A stretch of 64,000 nucleotides of DNA, from positions 3,658,001 to 3,722,000 of the forward strand of contig NZ_CP132938.1 in assembly GCF_040358255.1 (NCBI RefSeq), in the 5' to 3' direction. Made by a program: the position numbers and the translations under genes. Under the pieces are notes generated by a model. It was not told the origin of the DNA and did no database searches. It saw only the letters and a list, made by a program, of their open reading frames with translations. Shown piece after piece: positions 12,359 through 25,649 of the stretch (the first letter of the stretch is position 1; every line of letters starts with the position of its first letter). The DNA comes from Tunturibacter gelidoferens (lineage in GTDB: Bacteria > Acidobacteriota > Terriglobia > Terriglobales > Acidobacteriaceae).

Positions 12359-13567
12359 ATGCAAATCGTTCAGACGGTCTTCGGTGTCTTTCATCACTTT
12401 GAACTCGCCCGCCAGCTGCATCGCCGAGGTCATCTCCAGCGCATTTACTCTACCTGGCCTTGGACACGCCTCAAACGCGAAGGCCTCCCCCACGAAATCG
12501 TCGAGACGTTCCCTTGGGTCCACACCCCTGAAATCCTCATGCAACGCTTTGGTATCCACCATCCATGGCTAATGGATCAAATAAGTTATGCGAATGCGCT
12601 CTCATTCGATGAGTGGACCCTGCGCAAAGTCCGCGCCGCCGCAACGCCCGACGCCGTCATCGCTATCTCCGGCTCCAGCCTCAAGACTGGTCACGAGATA
12701 CAGTCCCGTGGCGGCCGCCTTATCTGCGACCGCGGCTCCTCCCACCAGCGCTACCAGGAAACTATCGTCTCCGAGGAGTACCAGCGCTGGAACGTAGACC
12801 GCCCCGTCACCGACATTCGCGACATCGTCCGCGAAGAAAAGATCTACGCCCTTGCCGACGCCATCACCGTCCCATCCAGCTTCGCAGCCCGTTCCTTCGT
12901 CGAAATGGGCATCCCAACCGACAAGGTCCACGTCATCCCTTACGGCGTTCGCCTCGAAAAATTCACCCGCACTGGAGAGTCCCCCACCGATCGCTTCGAG
13001 GTCCTCTTCGCCGGCTCCGTCACCCTGCGTAAGGGAGTTCCCTATCTGCTGGAGGCCTTCGCCCAACTACGCCACCCCGCAAAACGCCTGCGCCTGGCCG
13101 GCTCCATTCATCCCGACATGAAGTCCGTTCTCGACCGCCTCCCTCAACAACAAGTCGAGTTCCTCGGCCCGCTCCCGCAGGAGCAACTCCCCCACCTCAT
13201 GAGCACCAGTCACGTCATGGTCCTCCCCAGCATCGAAGAGGGTCTGGCACTCGTGCAGGGTCAGGCCCTCGCCTGTGGCTGTCCCGTTCTCTGCTCCACC
13301 AACACAGGCGGCGAAGATCTCTTTACCAACGGCGTCGAAGGCTTTGTAGTTCCTGTCCGCGACGCAGCCGCCCTCACCGAGCGCATGCAGCAACTCGCCG
13401 ACGACCCCGCCCTCCAATCGCAGATGAGCGAGGCCGCCCTTCGTCGCGTCCAGCTTCTCGGAGGCTGGGACGACTACGGCGACCGCTGGGAGTCGCTTCT
13501 GAAGCATCTGGTAGCAAGAGAGACAGCGAACGAACCGACCCATCACACCCCGCCGCCGACAAAGTGA
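12359..13567 (+). CDS. Glycosyltransferase family 4 (GT-B)
   Basis: Retaining glycosyltransferase, 402 residues. The N-terminal Rossmann half starts at once with MQIVQTVFGVFHHFELARQL; the C-terminal half has EVLFAGSVTLRKGVPYLLEA, HVMVLPSIEEGLALVQGQAL and CSTNTGGEDLF for nucleotide-sugar binding. The usual second Glu of the EX7E motif is Gln (VQGQALACG). The ATG at 12359 is chosen because the fold begins there; one at 12329 is possible. The 3' end overlaps the convergent thiS gene by 25 bases. Acceptor unknown; cell-surface polysaccharide is the usual target. Confidence 0.88.
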   Translation: MQIVQTVFGVFHHFELARQLHRRGHLQRIYSTWPWTRLKREGLPHEIVETFPWVHTPEILMQRFGIHHPWLMDQISYANALSFDEWTLRKVRAAATPDAVIAISGSSLKTGHEIQSRGGRLICDRGSSHQRYQETIVSEEYQRWNVDRPVTDIRDIVREEKIYALADAITVPSSFAARSFVEMGIPTDKVHVIPYGVRLEKFTRTGESPTDRFEVLFAGSVTLRKGVPYLLEAFAQLRHPAKRLRLAGSIHPDMKSVLDRLPQQQVEFLGPLPQEQLPHLMSTSHVMVLPSIEEGLALVQGQALACGCPVLCSTNTGGEDLFTNGVEGFVVPVRDAAALTERMQQLADDPALQSQMSEAALRRVQLLGGWDDYGDRWESLLKHLVARETANEPTHHTPPPTK

Positions 13568-13761
13568 ACCACCTCGAGCCGATCCCCTCCATGTAAAGCT
13601 GTCTGGGACCAACTCGACCGAGGAGCGATCTCGCCATTGTGTTCGATCGCTACCCGGTCGCCCTTCAATCCAAGCTCCACGACAAGCTGTTCAAGGTTGG
13701 CAGCTTCCTCAAGTGCGTCAAAGCTGCGGGACTGGCCGTTCAAAATCACCGTAAGTGCCAT
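13543..13761 (-). CDS. thiS: ThiS-like sulfur carrier protein
   Basis: Ubiquitin-fold sulfur carrier for the thiazole part of thiamine, 72 residues. The fold pattern MALTVILNGQSRSF, VAIEHNGEIAPRSSW, and a C-terminal GGDRLEVVHFVGGG fit ThiS. In the family the chain normally ends at the GlyGly that is adenylated and thiocarboxylated; here one Val follows (GGGV then TGA). The gene overlaps the end of the convergent glycosyltransferase gene. thiG and thiF are not adjacent; thiD lies 0.7 kb upstream on the same strand, with one unknown gene between. Confidence 0.8.
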   Translation of the reverse strand: MALTVILNGQSRSFDALEEAANLEQLVVELGLKGDRVAIEHNGEIAPRSSWSQTALHGGDRLEVVHFVGGGV

Positions 13762-13788
13762 ACCCATCCAGCCTAGCAGCATCGCCGT

Positions 13789-14145
13789 CTAAGCCAACAA
13801 ACGCACCACCCGTTCGATCAACCAGTTCCAGATCCGGCGTGTCAGCGCTGCTGGTTGGGCAAGGTCTTCGAACACACTCCGGCTCAGCCCCATCAGGATG
13901 TGGATCGCCTCATCGTCAGATTTATTGTCGAACGCCTGGATCGAATAACGCCGCGAGTTCGCAAGGTACTCGGCTGCATGTCCCAGCGTCAGCAGCGTGC
14001 GCCCGTGATGCGTCTGGCTGATCCGATGAATCGTCAGGTCTGCGTTTTTCGGCTGGGGGTTCCCAGGCGAAAGAGTTGGAACGCTCGAGGCGTTCTGGTT
14101 TACGAGTTCGGGTCGAAAGACCCCGGGAAAAGCTACTGTGGACAT
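13789..14145 (-). CDS. Conserved-looking small cytoplasmic protein
   Basis: 118 residues with a GGAGG ten bases before the ATG. The N-terminal 40 residues look disordered (Pro, Ser, Asn-rich). The C-terminal half is helical with HHGRTLLTLGHAAEYLANSR and SIQAFDNKSDDEAIHILMGL, resembling a small all-helical regulatory or adaptor fold. No family recognised. It sits 27 bases upstream of thiS on the same strand and probably shares a transcript. The 276 bases between it and thiD hold nothing I can support. Confidence 0.6.
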   Translation of the reverse strand: MSTVAFPGVFRPELVNQNASSVPTLSPGNPQPKNADLTIHRISQTHHGRTLLTLGHAAEYLANSRRYSIQAFDNKSDDEAIHILMGLSRSVFEDLAQPAALTRRIWNWLIERVVRLLA

Positions 14146-14421
14146 GGACCTGAATCCTCCGTCCTAATCCCTATCGGCGAACCCCACCGCGGCATTATCC
14201 GGAATGTTCCGATGACGACAACTCAACCTGAAAACCCTCACCGATATCGAAACAGTCCAGGAAGAACGTCGCAATGACCCAATCGATGTAGTTTCTGCAC
14301 TTAACTGTCTTTATTCCCCGCCATCGTCCACCCAGAAACCGTACCGCCACTCCACGGTTCCCGATTCAGCACAATGGAAATCTCGACGCGACGGAAAGCC
14401 CACCCCACCACCCGAAGACCA

Positions 14422-15228
14422 CTACTCATCCCGCAGCGGCCAAAGCGAATTCACCGGCCCCAGCCCCTTGCCTCTCGGCTCAGCCGTCCGAATCGCCTCC
14501 GCAACATACCGCTTGGCCATCTTCGCCGCGCCCAGCGGATCATCTCCCAGCACCACCCGGCTTAGCAGAGCGCTCGAAAACGCACACCCCGTCCCATGGG
14601 TGGACCGGCTCACAATCTGCTCCCCCTGCAGCCAGTCCAACTCACCATTCGCTCGCAGTAGCAGATCGTCCGGCGGCATCAGATGCCCACCCGTCGCCAC
14701 CACGTTCAATCCAGTCCACATCGCCTGCAGATCCCGCGCCGCCTCCGGCAGATCTCCCCGCTGCATCACAATCCGCCCCGCCAGAATCCCCAGCTCCTCA
14801 AGATTCGGCGTCACCCAATCCACCAGCGGCAGCAATCTCTCCCGCAGCACCCCCACCCCCTCCGCATCGAGCAGTTCCCTTCCCGAGCTCGACCGGATCA
14901 CCGGATCAAGCACCACCGGAACCCGCAACCCGCGTCCGCGCAGCCCCTCCAGAAACTCCGCCACTGCGACCACGTTCTCCGCAGTAGCCAGCATTCCAAT
15001 CTTGATCCCCGCCGCCGGCAGATCGCTCTCCAGGCAATCGAGTGTAGCCCTCACCATCTCCACCGGCACCGGCAGACTATCCCGCACCCCCTGCGTCGAC
15101 TGCACCGTCAAACTCGTAATGCACGAAGTCCCAAACAGCCCATGCGCCGCAAACACCATCAGGTCCGCGGTCACACCCGCACCCGAAGACGGATCAAATC
15201 CAGCGATCGTCAAAACTGTCTGCATCAT
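14422..15228 (-). CDS. thiD: Hydroxymethylpyrimidine/phosphomethylpyrimidine kinase
   Basis: Ribokinase-fold enzyme that phosphorylates HMP and HMP-P in thiamine synthesis; 268 residues, normal length. The substrate motif TIAGFDPSSGAGVTADL is at the N-terminus, KIGMLATAENV follows, and the catalytic anion hole HGTGCAFSSALLSR is near residue 220. AAGGGA precedes the start. The coding strand is G-rich, as for most minus-strand genes here. Together with thiS nearby it suggests a dispersed thiamine gene group. Confidence 0.93.
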   Translation of the reverse strand: MMQTVLTIAGFDPSSGAGVTADLMVFAAHGLFGTSCITSLTVQSTQGVRDSLPVPVEMVRATLDCLESDLPAAGIKIGMLATAENVVAVAEFLEGLRGRGLRVPVVLDPVIRSSSGRELLDAEGVGVLRERLLPLVDWVTPNLEELGILAGRIVMQRGDLPEAARDLQAMWTGLNVVATGGHLMPPDDLLLRANGELDWLQGEQIVSRSTHGTGCAFSSALLSRVVLGDDPLGAAKMAKRYVAEAIRTAEPRGKGLGPVNSLWPLRDE

Positions 15229-15550
15229 TCGCTTCCCTTCAGCATAAAGGAAGAAGCGCGCAGCTTCCGACTAACCGGAGATCCGGGAGTCACAGTGGCG
15301 TAAAGCGCGCGTTCTACCGATAATTCTGTGACGAAGCGTAATTTTTTGAAGGAGGACCATGAATCATGGGTCACCATACAGAACGTCAGAAATCGTACGC
15401 CAACGATCAGCGAACCTTGTGTTTTTTGGCACTTACGCGGTCGGCGACAAGCACAGGAACGCAAGCAGAACGTGAATTAATAAAGCCTTATAGAGTTAGC
15501 GGAATTTCCGTGCGTTAACGTACTATTTTGTCGATTGGTTTCGCTTGACA

Positions 15551-15652
15551 ACGCCTAAGTAGAAGGCGTAGCGTCAGCGTCCGGTAGGTAACGCGATGCG
15601 TTCTGGACGCCGTGGAGAGGGCTAGCAGGCAGGCCAATTTTCCATCGAAAAT
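15551..15652 (+). ncRNA. Candidate structured 5' leader of the lectin gene
   Basis: The 400-base gap before the lectin holds three consecutive stem-loops: ACGCCT/AGGCGT (15551-15569, 7-base loop); GCGTCC/GGACGC (15577-15610) with an inner AACGC/GCGTT stem; and ATTTTC/GAAAAT (15637-15652, 4-base loop). The heptamer GGGCTAG occurs at 15619 and again at 15659, flanking the third hairpin. The lectin ribosome binding site follows 40 bases later. Such tight packing suggests a folded leader or small RNA; I cannot match it to a known riboswitch. The rest of 15300-15550 shows nothing clear. Confidence 0.4.
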
Positions 15653-15704
15653 CGCGCCGGGCTAGTCCCAAGAAGCCTTTCAAAAATACATCGGGAGGTG
15701 GAAG

Positions 15705-16121
15705 ATGGCAGATATTTCGGGCGGCATCCTAGCTCCTTGGGTTTGGTATGATCCCCCGCCGGGGGGCGGTCTCGCGTCGCCGACGAATGGGACGATGGTA
15801 AGAGGGGACCGGCTAATTTCGTTCGACCGACAATTTTATGTCGCCATGCAGACGGACGGCAACTTTGTCATCTATGGCTCAGCTGGGAATTTTTCAGGTT
15901 GGGCTGTCTCGAACTTTTACGATCAATACCATTTGATCAATAAGGTGGTCATGCAGGGCGACGGCAACTTAGTGTGGCAGACGTACGACGGCTGGCCTCT
16001 TTTGGCGACAAACACGCAAGGCCATTGGGGTGCTTTTGCGGTGATGCAGGATGACCGCAACTTCGTGATTTACAACAGCGATAACAGTTGGTCCGGCTGG
16101 TCATCCGGGTCACAAGTATGA
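15705..16121 (+). CDS. Bulb-type (monocot mannose-binding) lectin domain protein
   Basis: Single beta-prism II lectin of 138 residues. Three QxDxNxVxY-type sugar sites are visible: QTDGNFVIY (about 49-57), QGDGNLVWQ (about 84-92, Tyr replaced) and QDDRNFVIY (about 115-123). Two sites match the mannose-binding consensus and one is degenerate. No signal peptide or anchor is present, so export, if any, must be by another route. GGGAGG precedes the ATG. Such domains occur in lectin-like bacteriocins and surface adhesins (known), but those bacteriocins carry two domains. Its role here is unknown. Confidence 0.88.
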   Translation: MADISGGILAPWVWYDPPPGGGLASPTNGTMVRGDRLISFDRQFYVAMQTDGNFVIYGSAGNFSGWAVSNFYDQYHLINKVVMQGDGNLVWQTYDGWPLLATNTQGHWGAFAVMQDDRNFVIYNSDNSWSGWSSGSQV

Positions 16122-16273
16122 AGATGTGCCACTCACCACAGAGATCCCAGTACAAATGATCGACGCGTTGAGAGGATACTCCTTAGCATCCAACAGAGTA
16201 GAATGATGAACTCACCACACGGCAGCGGAGCAACAAAACGTGCACCCATTCATGTGGCTCGCGGTTTGGGCAG

Positions 16274-16760
16274 CCCGCGCGGCATGGCTGAGCCTCAGTT
16301 CCTCCCCTCTGGTTCAAGCGCACCGCCTCCAGGCGGTTTTGGCTCCGTTGGCCTAAATCCCCGCCCGCGCGCCATGGTTGCGCCCCTTTTCGTCCCCTCT
16401 GGCTCAAGCGCGCCGCCTCCAGGCGGTTTTGGCTCCATTGGCCTAAATTCCCGCCCGCGCGGCATAGTTGCGCCTCGGTTCGTCCCCTCTGGCTCAAGCG
16501 CACCGCCTCCAGGCGGTTTTGGCTCCGTTGGCCTAAATCCCCGCCCGCGCGCCATAATTGCGCCCCGTTTTGTCCCCTCTGGCTCAAGCGCACCGCCTCG
16601 AGGCGGTTTTGGCTCCGTGGCCTAAATCCCCGCCCGCGCGCCATAGTTGCGCCCCGTTTGTCCGCTCTGGCTCAAGCGCACCGCCTCCACGGGGTTCTGG
16701 CTCCATTGGCCTAAATCCCAGCCTGCGCGGGCGCGCCGCCTCCAGGCGGTTCTGGCTCCG
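16274..16760. repeat. Tandem array of a 90-bp palindrome-containing repeat
   Basis: Five and a half copies. The palindrome CCGCCTCCAGGCGG or a variant falls at 16323, 16413, 16503, 16593 (CTCGAGG centre), 16681 and 16736: spacings of 90, 90, 90, 88 and 55 bases. A partial copy precedes the first. Each unit also has GGCTCAAGCG and GGCCTAAAT. As 90 is a multiple of three, open frames arise on both strands (GGFGSVGLN-rich on plus, PPGGGALEPEG-rich on minus), but the fourth unit has single-base indels that break them. I therefore treat it as a repeat, not a gene. Flanks 16122-16273 and 16761-17047 hold no supported gene. Confidence 0.85.
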
Positions 16761-17047
16761 CCCCGGGGGCTAGCAGCTGAAAAGCACCGGGAAATCTCCA
16801 GCGTTCACCATTCTCTTGCCCCGGTTTGTCGCATCTCGGACATTGCCGAGCGAAAGCAGCAGCGGGTGCTGCGCTTTTCCTCCATGGGGAAGAAAAGGGG
16901 ACGTTCCTCGATGGCCTTCCGGACATGCCGGAGTTCCTCGTCTATGTTCTCTATGAGATCCAAACGCTGTTACATTCTCTCCATCTCATAGGACGATGCC
17001 GGCGAGCACCGGTCAACGATCACGCCATGCTTCGCCTCGAATCGGCT

Positions 17048-17584
17048 CTACTTCGCCTCTTTGAGCAGTTCGGTTCGGTACTTCGGAGCCAGTTCCACCG
17101 CTTTCTTGAGGAACGCTGCTCCCTGCGCCGCATCGACCGCGGGAGGCGGAGTGGTACGCATCGCAACCACTGTTCCCAACTCTTTGAAGAACTCCTCCTG
17201 GCCTGCCGGCGAGCAGATGCAAAGCATCCTCACCGGTTCCGGCGAGCCATTATGGAACTGGTGTGGAGCGTTCGCTGGAATGTGGATAGTCTCTCCAGCG
17301 CGCACAATACGCTTCTCCCCTCGGAAGGTAGCCTCGAGTTCACCGTCGAGAAGAGTAAAGCTCTCCTCGAAATCATGACGATGCGGGGGAGGTCCGCCTC
17401 CGGGAGGAACATGCATATCGATCAGGGTGAATCGACCTGCAGTATCTGCTCCGGACAGCAGGATCGTGTAGGTGTCGCCCACGACTCCGAGATGCTGCGC
17501 ATTGCTGTTATCCGGATTTGCCACCACAAGACTCCGTCGCAGGTCGTCGGCTGGAATCGCTACCGTGTTGGACATCGTAGACAT
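17048..17584 (-). CDS. Cupin-domain protein
   Basis: 178-residue small beta-barrel protein. The two cupin motifs are visible: PPPHRHDFEESFTLLDGELE (metal ligands His, His, Glu) and IPANAPHQFHNGSPEPV (third His). This fits a mononuclear metal-binding sensor or enzyme such as a quercetinase-like or polyketide-cyclase-like cupin; substrate unknown. A helical tail of about 45 residues follows the barrel. GGAG precedes the ATG. It lies downstream of the SDR gene but past a terminator, so it is probably separately transcribed. Confidence 0.88.
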   Translation of the reverse strand: MSTMSNTVAIPADDLRRSLVVANPDNSNAQHLGVVGDTYTILLSGADTAGRFTLIDMHVPPGGGPPPHRHDFEESFTLLDGELEATFRGEKRIVRAGETIHIPANAPHQFHNGSPEPVRMLCICSPAGQEEFFKELGTVVAMRTTPPPAVDAAQGAAFLKKAVELAPKYRTELLKEAK

Positions 17585-17673
17585 CTTCTGCTCCTTGTTT
17601 TGAAATTACGGTTGAAGTTGCGTTTTGTGAACCTGACCAACGTAATTACGCTGCTATTCCCCTACCTGCAAAC

Positions 17674-17715
17674 AAAAAAAAGCGCTCCGAGCTTCCTTCC
17701 AAAGCCCGAAGCGCT
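17674..17715 (-). terminator. Rho-independent terminator of the SDR gene
   Basis: On the minus strand AGCGCTTCGGGCTT pairs with AAGCTCGGAGCGCT (one wobble region) around a short loop and is followed by a run of eight T. It starts 15 bases after the SDR stop codon. Confidence 0.85.
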
Positions 17716-17730
17716 CTTCAGCAACTCCCC

Positions 17731-18480
17731 TTATCGCATCCCACCCGCGGCCTGCAGCAGAGAACCGGTCACCCACTTGGCATCGTCCGAGGCCAGGAAC
17801 GCAACCACGGTGGACACATCATCCGGCTGTCCGATACGGCCGAGCGGCGTGCCCTGCAGCATCTGCTTTTCAAAGTCGCTTCCCTCCACACCAGCCGACT
17901 TGAAGCCCTCCGTTACAACAGGCCCAGGATTCACCGCGTTGACGCGAATCTTCTTCGGCCCCAGCTCCTTCGCAAACACGCGCGTAATCGCATCCACGGC
18001 GCCCTTCGTGCTGCTGTACACCGCCGACATCGGAGGCGTCTGCTCACTCGCGACCGACCCAATATTGATCACGCTGCCGCCCTCTGCCGGAAACAGAGCC
18101 ACTCCAGCCTTGGTGGCGAGCAACAATCCCTTCACATTGATGTCAAGCATCCGGTCGATCGACTCTTCCGTAATCCCCTCCAGCGGAGCGAACTCATACA
18201 CCCCGGCGTTGTTCACCAGAATATCGACTCTGCCATAAGCCTTCTTCGTCTCGGCAAAGAGCGCATCAATCTCCGCAGCCTTCGCGACGCTGCCCCCTAC
18301 GGCAATCGCCTTCCCGCCCGCCTTCACAATCTCTGCGACCACCTTGTCGGCGCCCTCTTTGCTCGATGCGTAGTTCACCACAACAGACGCACCCTGCGCC
18401 GCCAACTCCTTGGCAATGGCCGCGCCAATACCCTTCGACGCACCGGTCACAACCGCTACCTTACCTGCAAGCTTTCCCAT
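17731..18480 (-). CDS. Short-chain dehydrogenase/reductase (SDR)
   Basis: Classical SDR, 249 residues. Cofactor motif VTGASKGIGAAIA near residue 12, NNAG in VDILVNNAGVYEF, and catalytic Ser...Tyr-x-x-x-Lys in IGSVASEQTPPMSAVYSSTK. The Arg/Lys-poor second strand (NYASSKEGADK) favours NADP(H), as in 3-oxoacyl reductase-like members. The start at 18480 has GGAGATTGAG just upstream. It is 88 bases downstream of an ArsR gene on the same strand, which may control it. Substrate unknown. Confidence 0.92.
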   Translation of the reverse strand: MGKLAGKVAVVTGASKGIGAAIAKELAAQGASVVVNYASSKEGADKVVAEIVKAGGKAIAVGGSVAKAAEIDALFAETKKAYGRVDILVNNAGVYEFAPLEGITEESIDRMLDINVKGLLLATKAGVALFPAEGGSVINIGSVASEQTPPMSAVYSSTKGAVDAITRVFAKELGPKKIRVNAVNPGPVVTEGFKSAGVEGSDFEKQMLQGTPLGRIGQPDDVSTVVAFLASDDAKWVTGSLLQAAGGMR

Positions 18481-18568
18481 CTCAATCTCCTTTATTCGAT
18501 ATCTATCGAACAGTGCAGCTCTCAAATAGATGCGGAGACGGTCGAATCTGATTCGCGATTTACCGAAA

Positions 18569-18868
18569 CTAAATAGAAGCAAGCCGCCTGACATAAGCGT
18601 CGAACACTGGCCGGCGCAAATAAAGGTTCGCGCCTCGACCCACGCGTTTTATCTCAATCAGCCCTGCCTCGCTTAACTCCTTCATATGGTGCGACACCGT
18701 AGCCGGACTAATACACTCATGCTCCTGCAGCGCGCTGCACTCCATCCCCTCAGAGGCGCCCACCTGCTGAAGGATGGCAAACCGCCGCGGATCACTCAGC
18801 GCGCGAGCGATCGCCTGAAACTGATCATCCGACAGGGTCATCTCCGCGCTGGAATTCTTCTTCTTCAT
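18569..18868 (-). CDS. ArsR-family transcriptional regulator
   Basis: Winged-helix repressor of 99 residues. ALSDPRRFAILQQV and the recognition helix SPATVSHHMKELSEAGLIEI are typical of ArsR/SmtB proteins. The metal-binding ELCVCDL-type motif is absent (sequence reads SALQEHECISP), so it likely senses something other than heavy metals. The ATG at 18868 is preferred to upstream starts because homology begins there. It precedes the SDR gene on the same strand and is the natural candidate to regulate it. Confidence 0.9.
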   Translation of the reverse strand: MKKKNSSAEMTLSDDQFQAIARALSDPRRFAILQQVGASEGMECSALQEHECISPATVSHHMKELSEAGLIEIKRVGRGANLYLRRPVFDAYVRRLASI

Positions 18869-19091
18869 ACTTAAACCAGATGTCCCTCTCGCTGATTTGA
18901 TGCAAATGCCGAAGCGACACAGCAATCAACCAAAACCCCGGTACTCCGGCCCTTCCCGCTCTTACTGCTGCTGCAACAGACCGATCACATTCGCGCTTTC
19001 AACGAAATGAAACGTTTAGTCCGTCAGCCCGCACGTCCTCGGAACGGAAACGCGTGGCGGCTGCCTGCACCCACAGCCGCCACGAAACACC

Positions 19092-20957
19092 CTAGACAGA
19101 AAGATTCAGAACACGATTAAGTCGCTGCACAAACGCCGCGGGGTCCTGAAGCGCCACGCCTTCCATCAGGAGAGCCTGATCAAACAGCAGCCACGCCGCA
19201 TCCTGAGCCACCGAATCATCCGACCGCGCCAGCAGCTTCTTCACAATCTCATGATCAGGATTAATCTCCAGCGTAGGCTTCAGTGCAGGAATATCCTTCT
19301 GTCCCATCGCACGCATCATCTGCTGCATCTTCAGCGACGGCTCCTCTTCATCCGACACAATGCACGAAGGACTATCCGCAAGCCGCACCGAAGCTCGCAC
19401 GTCTTTCACGCGGTCCCCAAGCGTCTTCTTCAGCATCTCGATCAGCGGCTTCAGTCCCTCTGCCTTATCCGGCTCTTCCCCGCCCTTCAGATCTTCGCTC
19501 GTAGAAGATTTATTCACTGCCTTCAGATCGATCTCGCCATACTTGTCTACACCCGAGAAGATCACCTCATCAAAGTCATCATCAAGAATCAGAACCTCAA
19601 CGTCCTTCTTCTTGTAGATCTCGAGCAACGGCGAAGTCCGCAGCAGAGACTCCGCGCCCCCCGTGATGTAGTAGATGCTCTTCTGATCATCCTTCATCCG
19701 CGACTTCACATCCGCAAGACTCGTCAGCCCATCCACCTTGGTCGATTTGAATCGCACCAGCTCCAGCAGAGTCTCGCGATTCGCATAATCCCCGTACAGG
19801 CCCTCTTTCAGAGGACGGTTGTACTCCGCAATAAACTTCAAATACTCGTCCGGCTGATTCGCAGCAATGTTCTTCAACTCAGAGAGAATCTTCTTCACGC
19901 TGGCCGTACGAATGCTCGTCAGCACGCGATTCTGCTGCAGAATCTCGCGGCTCACATTCAGCGGAAGATCTTCGCTGTCGATGATCCCCCGCACAAAGCG
20001 CAGGTACTGCGGCAAAAGCTCTTTTGCATCATCCATAATGAAGACGCGCTTCACATACAGCTTCACCCCCACCTTGTACTCCGAGTTGTACAGATCCAGA
20101 GGAGCCTTCGCCGGAATATAGAACAGCGTCGTGTACTCGAGACTCCCCTCCGCTTTGGTATGGAACCAGAACAGCGGATCATCCCACCCACCCGACACGG
20201 ACTTATAAAGTTCCTTGTAGTCCTCATCCGTCAGCTCGCTCTTCGGACGTCGCCACAGTGCACTCGCCGCATTCACCTGCTCGGTCGTGCGAACCTTATC
20301 CGACTTCTTCTCTGCCTCATTCCACTGGCTCTTGTCGTAAGTCAGAAAGATCGGAAACGCAATGTGGTTCGAGTACTTCTTAACGATCTCCTGCAGCCGC
20401 CAGCTATTCGCGTACTGCTTCCCTTCTTCGTTGAAGTGAATTACCAGCGTAGTGCCAGCAACGGCTCGCTCCGCCGGTTCGATATCGAACCCGGTCTTGC
20501 CATCGCTCACCCAGCGCCAAGCCTGCTCCTCTCCAACCTTACGCGATACCACTTCGACGCGATCCGCAACCATGAACACGCTGTAGAACCCAACGCCAAA
20601 CTGCCCAATCAGGTTCGAATCCTTCTTCGCATCGCCCGACAGCTGCGACAAAAAGTTCTTCGTACCCGACCGCGCAATCGTACCTAGGTTCGAAGTCAAC
20701 TCCTCCTCATTCATTCCGATGCCCGTATCGCTGATCGTAAGAGTCTTCTTCTCCTCATCCAGCTCCAGCTCGATGCGCGGATCGAACGGCAGCGCCTTAT
20801 AGACCTCATCCGTGAGCGTCAGATGCCGAAGCTTATCCAGCGCATCGGAAGAGTTCGAGACCAGTTCACGAAGAAAGATCTCAGGGTGAGAGTAAAGCGA
20901 GTGGATGATCAGTTGCAGCAGCTGACTAACTTCAGTTTGAAATTCACGTTTCGACAT
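19092..20957 (-). CDS. htpG: Chaperone Hsp90 (HtpG)
   Basis: ATP-dependent homodimeric chaperone, 621 residues, the normal bacterial length. The GHKL ATPase domain shows ELVSNSSDALDKLRH, ISDTGIGMNEEEL and IGQFGVGFYSVFMVADRVEV; the middle domain has GIIDSEDLPLNVSREILQQN with the catalytic Arg loop; the C-terminal dimerisation domain follows. Start MSKREFQTEVSQLL matches the family. It is monocistronic, with divergent transcription to the secreted protein at 21185. The 165 bases between htpG and arsR hold nothing notable. Confidence 0.98.
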   Translation of the reverse strand: MSKREFQTEVSQLLQLIIHSLYSHPEIFLRELVSNSSDALDKLRHLTLTDEVYKALPFDPRIELELDEEKKTLTISDTGIGMNEEELTSNLGTIARSGTKNFLSQLSGDAKKDSNLIGQFGVGFYSVFMVADRVEVVSRKVGEEQAWRWVSDGKTGFDIEPAERAVAGTTLVIHFNEEGKQYANSWRLQEIVKKYSNHIAFPIFLTYDKSQWNEAEKKSDKVRTTEQVNAASALWRRPKSELTDEDYKELYKSVSGGWDDPLFWFHTKAEGSLEYTTLFYIPAKAPLDLYNSEYKVGVKLYVKRVFIMDDAKELLPQYLRFVRGIIDSEDLPLNVSREILQQNRVLTSIRTASVKKILSELKNIAANQPDEYLKFIAEYNRPLKEGLYGDYANRETLLELVRFKSTKVDGLTSLADVKSRMKDDQKSIYYITGGAESLLRTSPLLEIYKKKDVEVLILDDDFDEVIFSGVDKYGEIDLKAVNKSSTSEDLKGGEEPDKAEGLKPLIEMLKKTLGDRVKDVRASVRLADSPSCIVSDEEEPSLKMQQMMRAMGQKDIPALKPTLEINPDHEIVKKLLARSDDSVAQDAAWLLFDQALLMEGVALQDPAAFVQRLNRVLNLSV

Positions 20958-21184
20958 AGACCTCTATTATCGCCAATATTCCCTCACAAAACGAGGCCCC
21001 CGGCACCGCGAAGGAGGAGAAGTAAATTTCCGCCTTGGCGCACAAGTTCCAGAAGGTTATCTACTACTCGACATTAAAATTAAGAACAGTTGGGTTTTGG
21101 AAGGCTTTCCAGGCTTCGTTGTGGCGTCTTGAACACAGGTTACAGTTACGAAGTGAGGATATAACTCTCTGCGGGAGAAACATC

Positions 21185-22981
21185 ATGAAGAAGGGCCTCT
21201 TGTTTAGCATCTTTACATCGATGCTGACTGCCGTATCCTTTGGCCAGACTTTTGCTACCCCCATTCAGAAACCCGTTGGTACGCCCGCGAGCAGCGTAAA
21301 CCTTACACCGTCCGCAACCCAAAACATCGTCAACACCCCTGGCACCAATACAAACTTTAGTTCACCGACAGGATGGAAGCATGCCAACCTCTACCCTGGA
21401 ACAGATGCAGGCGCAAAGATCAACGCGGCCTATGCTGATCTGCCAGCGAACGGTGGCATAATTTTTTATCAACCAGCGGTCGGGGGAGAGAAATTCGGCA
21501 CCTCAATAGTCTTCGACAATCCCCACAAGCCCGCCATTCTCCAGTGCTACGGCGCATCAGGAAATGGAGAGGAGACGCTGACATATACGGGAAGCGGGAC
21601 AGGAATCTTGATCAATACCGGCCCAGCGACCGTTCCCAGCGGACCAGTAGGCTCAGGAATTCGGGACTGCGACTTTGCCGCTTCCAGCTCTTCCGCGACA
21701 CTCTTGTTTCTTGGAGGTTCGAATGGAGCTGAAGGAGCTGTAATTCGTGACAGCAAGTTCTTCGGTGGCGCGCTGACGATGGGAATCGGCAATAACACTT
21801 GGCACGTGCTCATGTCTCACCTCTATCTCCAGGGTGGAGTTCAGCAGTTTGCTACATCGGGTAGCATCAATGCTGGAGAGAACATCGACATCGAAGGTGT
21901 AGTTTTCGGTGGTGGCGGCTTTGGTATCTTTGCAAACGGTGTTGTTTTCGGCGGGGGGGCTTCAGGGCCCGGTCTCAATCTTAAATGTGGTTCGTGCTCC
22001 TTCGACAATACGCAATTAGTTGTCGCTGGTGGCCAGATAAAAATGGACTCCACCCACTTTGAAGATCCAGGGGCAATCCCGTGGCCAACCTATCCGCTGG
22101 TTGTGAGAGGAGGCAACCTATCGCTTGATACGCCTAGCTTCTTTGGCAATCATAAGACGGCTCCTCTTGACGCATACATCAGTGTGACATCTGGAATTTT
22201 AATCACGGAAGCCGTAGACGCCTTTGGGTGCGATTGCACCTATATTTATTCCTCGTCTGGAGATGGAAGGATTATAGGAGGCCCCCCCTTATCGCTAAGC
22301 GGGCCCTCTGGGTCCAGAGTAACCCTGATTCACGACACGAGTTCTGAGAAGTCTGTAGTTGACGGTGGCAGGAACTACGCGTACCACGCTGAGAGCCCTA
22401 CAGCGGTTCAAGGCTATTACGATTTCCTGCCTGGAGGCGGCGTTCACGTTAGGGACACCGCTACCTCTCAGGCCGGAACCGGAATGTACCTGCGGTCCAG
22501 CGATTTGATGTCAGTCACTACACCAGATTTGTCGGGTTACACCCACGCCAAGTTCATCGGCAGAAACTGCGACAATACAGCCTACAGTTCATCCATTGAC
22601 TTCTATACAGAGAAGAAGACTGCAGCGAATCAGTCCGACACAAGCACCGTGGCTGCGACGATCGACTGCAACAAAGTACTAAGTGTTCCAGCCGTCGTAT
22701 CTGGCGGATCAACCTTCACTATAGCCGGATGCGGAGCCACAAGCGCCATCGGTGGCTCTACTGCAGGGCAATTTGTCTCAGGTGCTACTGGCACCTGTAG
22801 CGTAACGGTAACAATGGGCGGGAATGTTAAAGCCCCTCATGGGTGGGTCTGCCCGCAGCCGATTAGTATTTCCACGGGTACTTCGGCATGGATAGAAACC
22901 GGCTTCACGACAACCACCGCCACATTTCAAGGTAAGACCACACCAGGACAGTTGATTATTTTTTCCTGTACCGGCTACTAG
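21185..22981 (+). CDS. Large secreted protein, probable right-handed beta-helix
   Basis: 598 residues with a signal peptide (MKKGLLFSIFTSMLTAVSFG, cleavage near GQTFA). The N-terminal third has YPGTDAGAKINAAYADLPAN and GGIIFYQPAV, the opening typical of pectate-lyase-superfamily beta-helices and phage tailspike-like proteins. The middle is rich in short Gly/Asn turns (GVVFGGGGFGIF). The last 100 residues form a separate Thr/Ser-rich beta domain ending FSCTGY. No catalytic residues are identified; a surface or extracellular polysaccharide-binding role is inference. Confidence 0.7.
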   Translation: MKKGLLFSIFTSMLTAVSFGQTFATPIQKPVGTPASSVNLTPSATQNIVNTPGTNTNFSSPTGWKHANLYPGTDAGAKINAAYADLPANGGIIFYQPAVGGEKFGTSIVFDNPHKPAILQCYGASGNGEETLTYTGSGTGILINTGPATVPSGPVGSGIRDCDFAASSSSATLLFLGGSNGAEGAVIRDSKFFGGALTMGIGNNTWHVLMSHLYLQGGVQQFATSGSINAGENIDIEGVVFGGGGFGIFANGVVFGGGASGPGLNLKCGSCSFDNTQLVVAGGQIKMDSTHFEDPGAIPWPTYPLVVRGGNLSLDTPSFFGNHKTAPLDAYISVTSGILITEAVDAFGCDCTYIYSSSGDGRIIGGPPLSLSGPSGSRVTLIHDTSSEKSVVDGGRNYAYHAESPTAVQGYYDFLPGGGVHVRDTATSQAGTGMYLRSSDLMSVTTPDLSGYTHAKFIGRNCDNTAYSSSIDFYTEKKTAANQSDTSTVAATIDCNKVLSVPAVVSGGSTFTIAGCGATSAIGGSTAGQFVSGATGTCSVTVTMGGNVKAPHGWVCPQPISISTGTSAWIETGFTTTTATFQGKTTPGQLIIFSCTGY

Positions 22982-25528: not shown

Positions 25529-25649
25529 TTTTAGCAGCCAAAAAGAGCGCTGCTAAAACACCACATCCACCACGCAAAACACCACAACTTCACCACCAAA
25601 ACACCACATGAAAAAGGCGTTTTTCTGGAAAACCCCCAGCAAAAACGCC
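25529..25649. repeat. Hairpins and three direct repeats downstream of the amidinotransferase gene
   Basis: TTTTAGCAGC / GCTGCTAAAA (25529-25558) is a perfect 10-base stem with a 10-base loop. GGCGTTTTTCTGG pairs with CCAG-C-AAAAACGCC (25616-25649). Between them AAAACACCACA occurs at 25555, 25576 and 25598, spaced 21 and 22 bases. Neither hairpin has a canonical U-tract, so simple terminators are unlikely. No gene is supported in 25466-25690. Confidence 0.6.

Follow-up and report, generated by a model that had tools for sequence, protein, structure and literature searches.

A 90-bp tandem array behind a lectin gene of Tunturibacter gelidoferens: a candidate fast-changing repeat-protein gene with a shortened tail

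We found that a 90-bp tandem array in the genome of the soil bacterium Tunturibacter gelidoferens lies within a small cassette, behind a lectin gene. Our best explanation, which we hold tentatively, is that the array forms the main part of a small repeat-protein gene of this lectin cassette, that this gene changes fast, and that a 1-bp deletion has removed its tail here. We favour the view that the array is a gene, but this is not proven. Coordinates refer to the window, the whole stretch of 64,000 nucleotides analysed. Genomes compared were the window genome (G000), a second strain of the same species (G065), and one genome from each of two related species (G031 and G024). The features are as follows.

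15413 to 16797, plus strand: lectin-repeat cassette of ~1.4 kb, shared with the G031 locus (from blastn blocks and alignment; edges approximate)
15413 to 15704, plus strand: conserved 5' non-coding part, 95% identical to G031 and 87% to G024; Rfam gave nothing at the gathering score
15705 to 16121, plus strand: lectin of the monocot mannose-binding (MMBL) type, 138 amino acids (from phmmer, NCBIfam and motifs)
16203 to 16625, plus strand: repeat open reading frame, 140 amino acids with 30-residue repeats, cut short by a 1-bp deletion near 16617
16272 to 16361, plus strand: repeat copy 1, 90 bp
16362 to 16451, plus strand: repeat copy 2, 90 bp
16452 to 16541, plus strand: repeat copy 3, 90 bp
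16542 to 16630, plus strand: repeat copy 4, 89 bp; the 1-bp deletion near 16617 creates a TAA stop at 16623-16625
16626 to 16780, plus strand: drifting tail, comprising the end of copy 4, copies 5 and 6, the former C-terminal codons and the former stop TGA (16778-16780)

Tandem Repeats Finder placed the array at 16273-16729 (period 90, 5.1 copies, 89% matches, score 711) and listed one further array across the 64-kb window, a 22-bp repeat at 25555. As the original prediction held, the unit is exactly 30 codons long in the first copies (copies 1-3 are 90 bp each) and both strands are open, the plus strand from 16203 to 16625 (140 amino acids) and the minus strand from 16183 to 16644 (153 amino acids). 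The indels it described in later copies are also there: besides the deletion in copy 4, copy 5 has a second 1-bp deletion near 16657, and the middle of copy 6 is gone near 16730. Array length differs by species, with 3.4 copies in G031, 3.9 in G024 and 5.1 in the window.

A palindrome had been ascribed to each copy, which proved true of part of the array. Copies 1-3 carry CCGCCTCCAGGCGG, copy 4 carries CCGCCTCGAGGCGG and copy 5 carries CCGCCTCCACGGGG; in copies 1-4, CCGCCTCCAGGCGG or its variant is fully self-complementary. REP and MITE elements have a short inverted repeat in each unit and occur as many dispersed copies. The array resembles them in the inverted repeat, perfect in copies 1-4, and it had been suggested that it might be such a non-coding element. 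However, the array is tandem, occupies a single locus and does not conserve its inverted repeat. We searched the 5.58-Mb genome and detected no copies other than its own locus (E≤0.001). Among the seven copies of the relatives, six have an imperfect palindrome (2/3 in G031 and 4/4 in G024). Seven single units (five plus-strand, two minus-strand) folded no better than their shuffles (z of -0.75 to +0.58), and no Rfam family was matched at the gathering score. Copy number, loss of the palindrome and folding rule out the REP/MITE and structured RNA or DNA readings, to which we give almost no credence. The palindrome probably arises from the coding of PPPGG, as CCN CCN CCN GGN GGN tends to yield one.

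We also considered the minus-strand frame (16183-16644, 153 amino acids) as the gene. It is open in the window, but contains one stop in G031 and two in G024, and consistent purifying selection is absent from it. The stops in the relatives count against it, and we regard a minus-strand gene as very improbable.

The plus-strand frame is kept through the array in both related species, with a start and a stop. It encodes 134 amino acids in G031 and 144 in G024, and both versions begin at the same ATGATG and share their C-terminal end. The two frames are 30 bases apart in length, a difference that is not a whole unit and that keeps the phase. The predicted product consists of 30-residue repeats of Pro, Gly, Ser and Arg with a pI of 12, and in the window it ends ...GGFGSVA. 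No Pfam or NCBIfam model matched it at cut-off. Its predicted structure had no confident fold (mean pLDDT 49.8), although with an alignment depth of three sequences this is uninformative; the protein is probably disordered.

In the window species the frame is truncated. The 1-bp deletion in copy 4 is common to the window genome and G065, three further indels lie downstream of the new stop, and the former C-terminal end persists at 16760-16780 in another phase. The deletion moved the stop upstream, leaving 140 residues and a sequence behind the new stop that drifts. The same observations fit a genuine repeat-protein gene that has died in this species, its function ended by the frameshift and the whole array now drifting: the deletion and the tail indels are shared by two strains, and the original C-terminus is lost. 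Against such a death, the 140 residues left are comparable to the 134 and 144 of the relatives, and neither strain has another break in the remaining frame. We consider a dead gene unlikely, and the frame may have been trimmed rather than killed, because its length is close to that in the relatives and it is unbroken in the second strain. One of the two alternatives in the original prediction, a recently decayed gene, thus comes close: relatives have frames with a C-terminal end of their own, and here the frame is broken and its tail drifts. It is at odds with the length and integrity of what is left.

We found that the placement of indels is weak to moderate evidence that the frame is kept. 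We compared, in four genomes, the first 381 bases of the frame with 357 bases of non-coding cassette DNA counted from a fixed anchor. No indel fell in the 381 frame bases, versus six events in the 357 non-coding bases, five of which were not multiples of three (p = 0.013, or 0.019 if only frame-breaking events are counted). Including the 30-base in-frame difference gave p = 0.051, including the window's own frame-breaking deletion gave p = 0.097, and including both gave p = 0.15. Behind the new stop there were 3 events in 149 bases, versus 0 in the 423 bases before it (p = 0.017, with the frame-breaking deletion left out). The test was post hoc and treats events as independent. The 5' part of G024 had 12 or 19 gap columns depending on the slice, and we took the excess to be an edge effect.

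These counts bear on the most serious rival, a non-coding 90-bp minisatellite behind the lectin gene that varies by unequal exchange and owes its length and openness to chance, the unit being GC-rich and free of stops. We regard this as a real possibility. The stricter counts (p = 0.013 and 0.019, and 0.017 behind the new stop) favour a kept frame, as do the start and end shared in phase by two relatives. In contrast, the indel test carries no weight once every event is counted (p = 0.15), and the frame is an orphan. Openness itself is weak evidence because the unit is nearly stop-proof in the plus frame: only 0.4-0.7% of substitutions in it create a stop.

Substitutions did not favour a gene. 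Purifying selection in one frame had been expected of a gene, and we did not detect it. Differences between copies totalled 27 non-synonymous (N) and 11 synonymous (S), where neutrality predicts about 69:31; within each of the three species the N:S counts were 11:3, 5:5 and 11:3. A bias toward synonymous sites was thus not seen in the repeat frame, in which N:S was neutral or rich in N. Between species, dN/dS in the plus frame was 0.57 for the window and G031, 2.35 for the window and G024, and 1.35 for G031 and G024, values inflated because some changes are common to several copies. The first 23 codons, which lie outside the array, had N:S of 8:1 between G031 and G024 and 8:0 between the window and G024. 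No frame gave consistent purifying selection; the lowest ratios over all pairs (0.63-1.04) were in frame +2, which holds 4-8 stops. The neutral N:S between copies and between species is what a minisatellite would give.

Codon usage likewise gave no coding signal, as a minisatellite would predict. With scores trained on 40 long open reading frames of the window, the plus frame scored -0.10 to -0.21 per codon, whereas five neighbouring genes reached +0.06 to +0.32, with the lectin at the bottom of that range. Within the array, some other frames did better than the plus frame. We also tried positive selection as an account of the substitutions. Five unit-level changes are fixed in G024 and all are non-synonymous, against an expected ~3.4:1.6, which is not significant (0.69^5 = 0.16).

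The neighbours of the array are more informative. The repeat frame starts 81 bases after a lectin gene. The lectin matched lectin II (1kj1; 4.3e-10) and putidacin L1 (1e-7) by phmmer, and contains the QxDxNxVxY motif three times, twice complete and once with a final Q. We place it among the MMBL lectins on these motifs and on its similarity to members with solved structures. It matched the NCBIfam model LLB_putidacin at 2e-13 with 50.3 bits, below the cut-off of 275, and the Pfam B_lectin model was not reported for it at E≤1. No signal peptide was recognised by eye, and a search of phages gave no match to the lectin. We found no paper on Edaphobacter and lectin.

The repeat frame and the lectin occur together. 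Searching 62 genomes of the genus gave five matches to the repeat protein at E≤0.001, of which four were good (G000, G065, G031 and G024) and one, in G073, was weak (E of 7.4e-4, 38%, one internal stop). In 4/4 genomes with a good match the lectin lies directly upstream. The lectin is present at ≥94% identity in these same four genomes; three others have weak matches (30-45% identity) within larger frames. A profile of the repeat protein matched 4/396 genomes of the phylum at E≤1e-4, all carriers of the cassette, and no homologue was found outside the cassette among these 396, nor in viral contigs or plasmids. Genome contigs searched with patterns from the N-terminus alone returned only two Edaphobacter lichenicola loci, in strains M8UP30 and M8US30.

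We asked whether the two frames form a single one. In the window and G031 they are in one phase, the TGA of the lectin is the only stop that separates them, and its read-through would fuse them; in G024 they are out of phase, hence the fusion is not conserved and we rejected it. Three species also have a short open frame across the linker, which enters the repeat frame in G024, but its differences look mostly non-synonymous by eye.

The cassette probably moved between species, since its history differs from that of its flanks and it sits at a different place in G031. Between window positions 13001-22000 and the 19.9-kb G031 locus, only 15413 to ~16797 is in common (main block 95%), with the right edge ~17 bases past the former stop of the repeat frame. 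The flanks of the G031 site are 30 bases apart in G024, and the G031 insert has an 89-bp stretch on both sides (90% identity). At the window's own locus, G031 has a 324-amino-acid NHL-repeat frame instead (L083:1149-2123, minus strand). Flanking genes pair G031 with G024: a gene that we take to be thiD-like is 96.3% identical, and a cupin gene 92.5%, versus 91.9% and 90.8% in the other pairs. The cassette pairs G031 with the window species (94.8% versus 89% in the 5' part; 94.2% versus 85.6% in the frame). The lectin is little informative (95.2-96.4% among G000, G031 and G024).

Several other observations concern the cassette and its edges. The lectin genes of the window genome and G065 differ by 1.7%, their 5' parts are identical and their repeat frames differ by 0.5%; some of the G065 lectin differences match G031, which suggests recombination within the lectin gene. 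Window positions 16845-16955 (end approximate) retain only the C-terminal end of the NHL-repeat gene whose 324-amino-acid version has the same neighbours in G031, and this stretch also matches four other loci (two in G071, one each in G017 and G002). At the left edge, 15356-15439 has matches of 81-89% in five other Edaphobacter genomes and is single copy in the window genome (E≤0.001). Beside the G031 insert lies a dispersed repeat, REP-like by eye (L006:8880-8976), with more matches in G000, G065, G024 and G031.

If the array is a repeat-protein gene, it would encode very basic 30-residue repeats placed behind a single-domain lectin. The protein, if made, might be a flexible, positively charged partner of the lectin and act together with it, as their constant adjacency hints. 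If the frame is translated, its product would be a repeat protein of this lineage only, linked to a lectin and carried with it from one relative to another. A bolder version is a two-gene mobile cassette of a lectin and a cationic, disordered repeat protein selected to change, a self-diversifying partner used perhaps in competition between relatives. In such a cassette, the rate of change at amino-acid sites would equal or exceed that of nearby non-coding DNA, with homogenisation spreading changes to most copies. We think this version improbable.

The lectin invites comparison with the lectin-like bacteriocins LlpA, putidacin L1 and pyocin L. As described in PMC3585409, these also have the MMBL domain with QxDxNxVxY, three motifs making up one domain, and Pseudomonas LlpA is reported to lack a signal peptide, which we likewise did not recognise in the lectin here. 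Unlike the LlpA-type bacteriocins described there, which have two MMBL domains in tandem, the lectin here has 138 amino acids and one domain, is followed by a repeat frame, and scores under the NCBIfam cut-off.

The array is an instructive case for when tandem repeats should count as a gene. In this case the length of the unit, its openness and its palindrome are all misleading; indel placement and neighbours alone are informative, and not loudly. Purifying selection on the repeats is not visible, and the array is confined to one lectin cassette, in contrast to the coding satellites and minisatellites of prokaryotes as presented in PMC6749651. With those it nonetheless shares a long unit that is a multiple of three, a probable place within a protein gene, and a length that varies among relatives.
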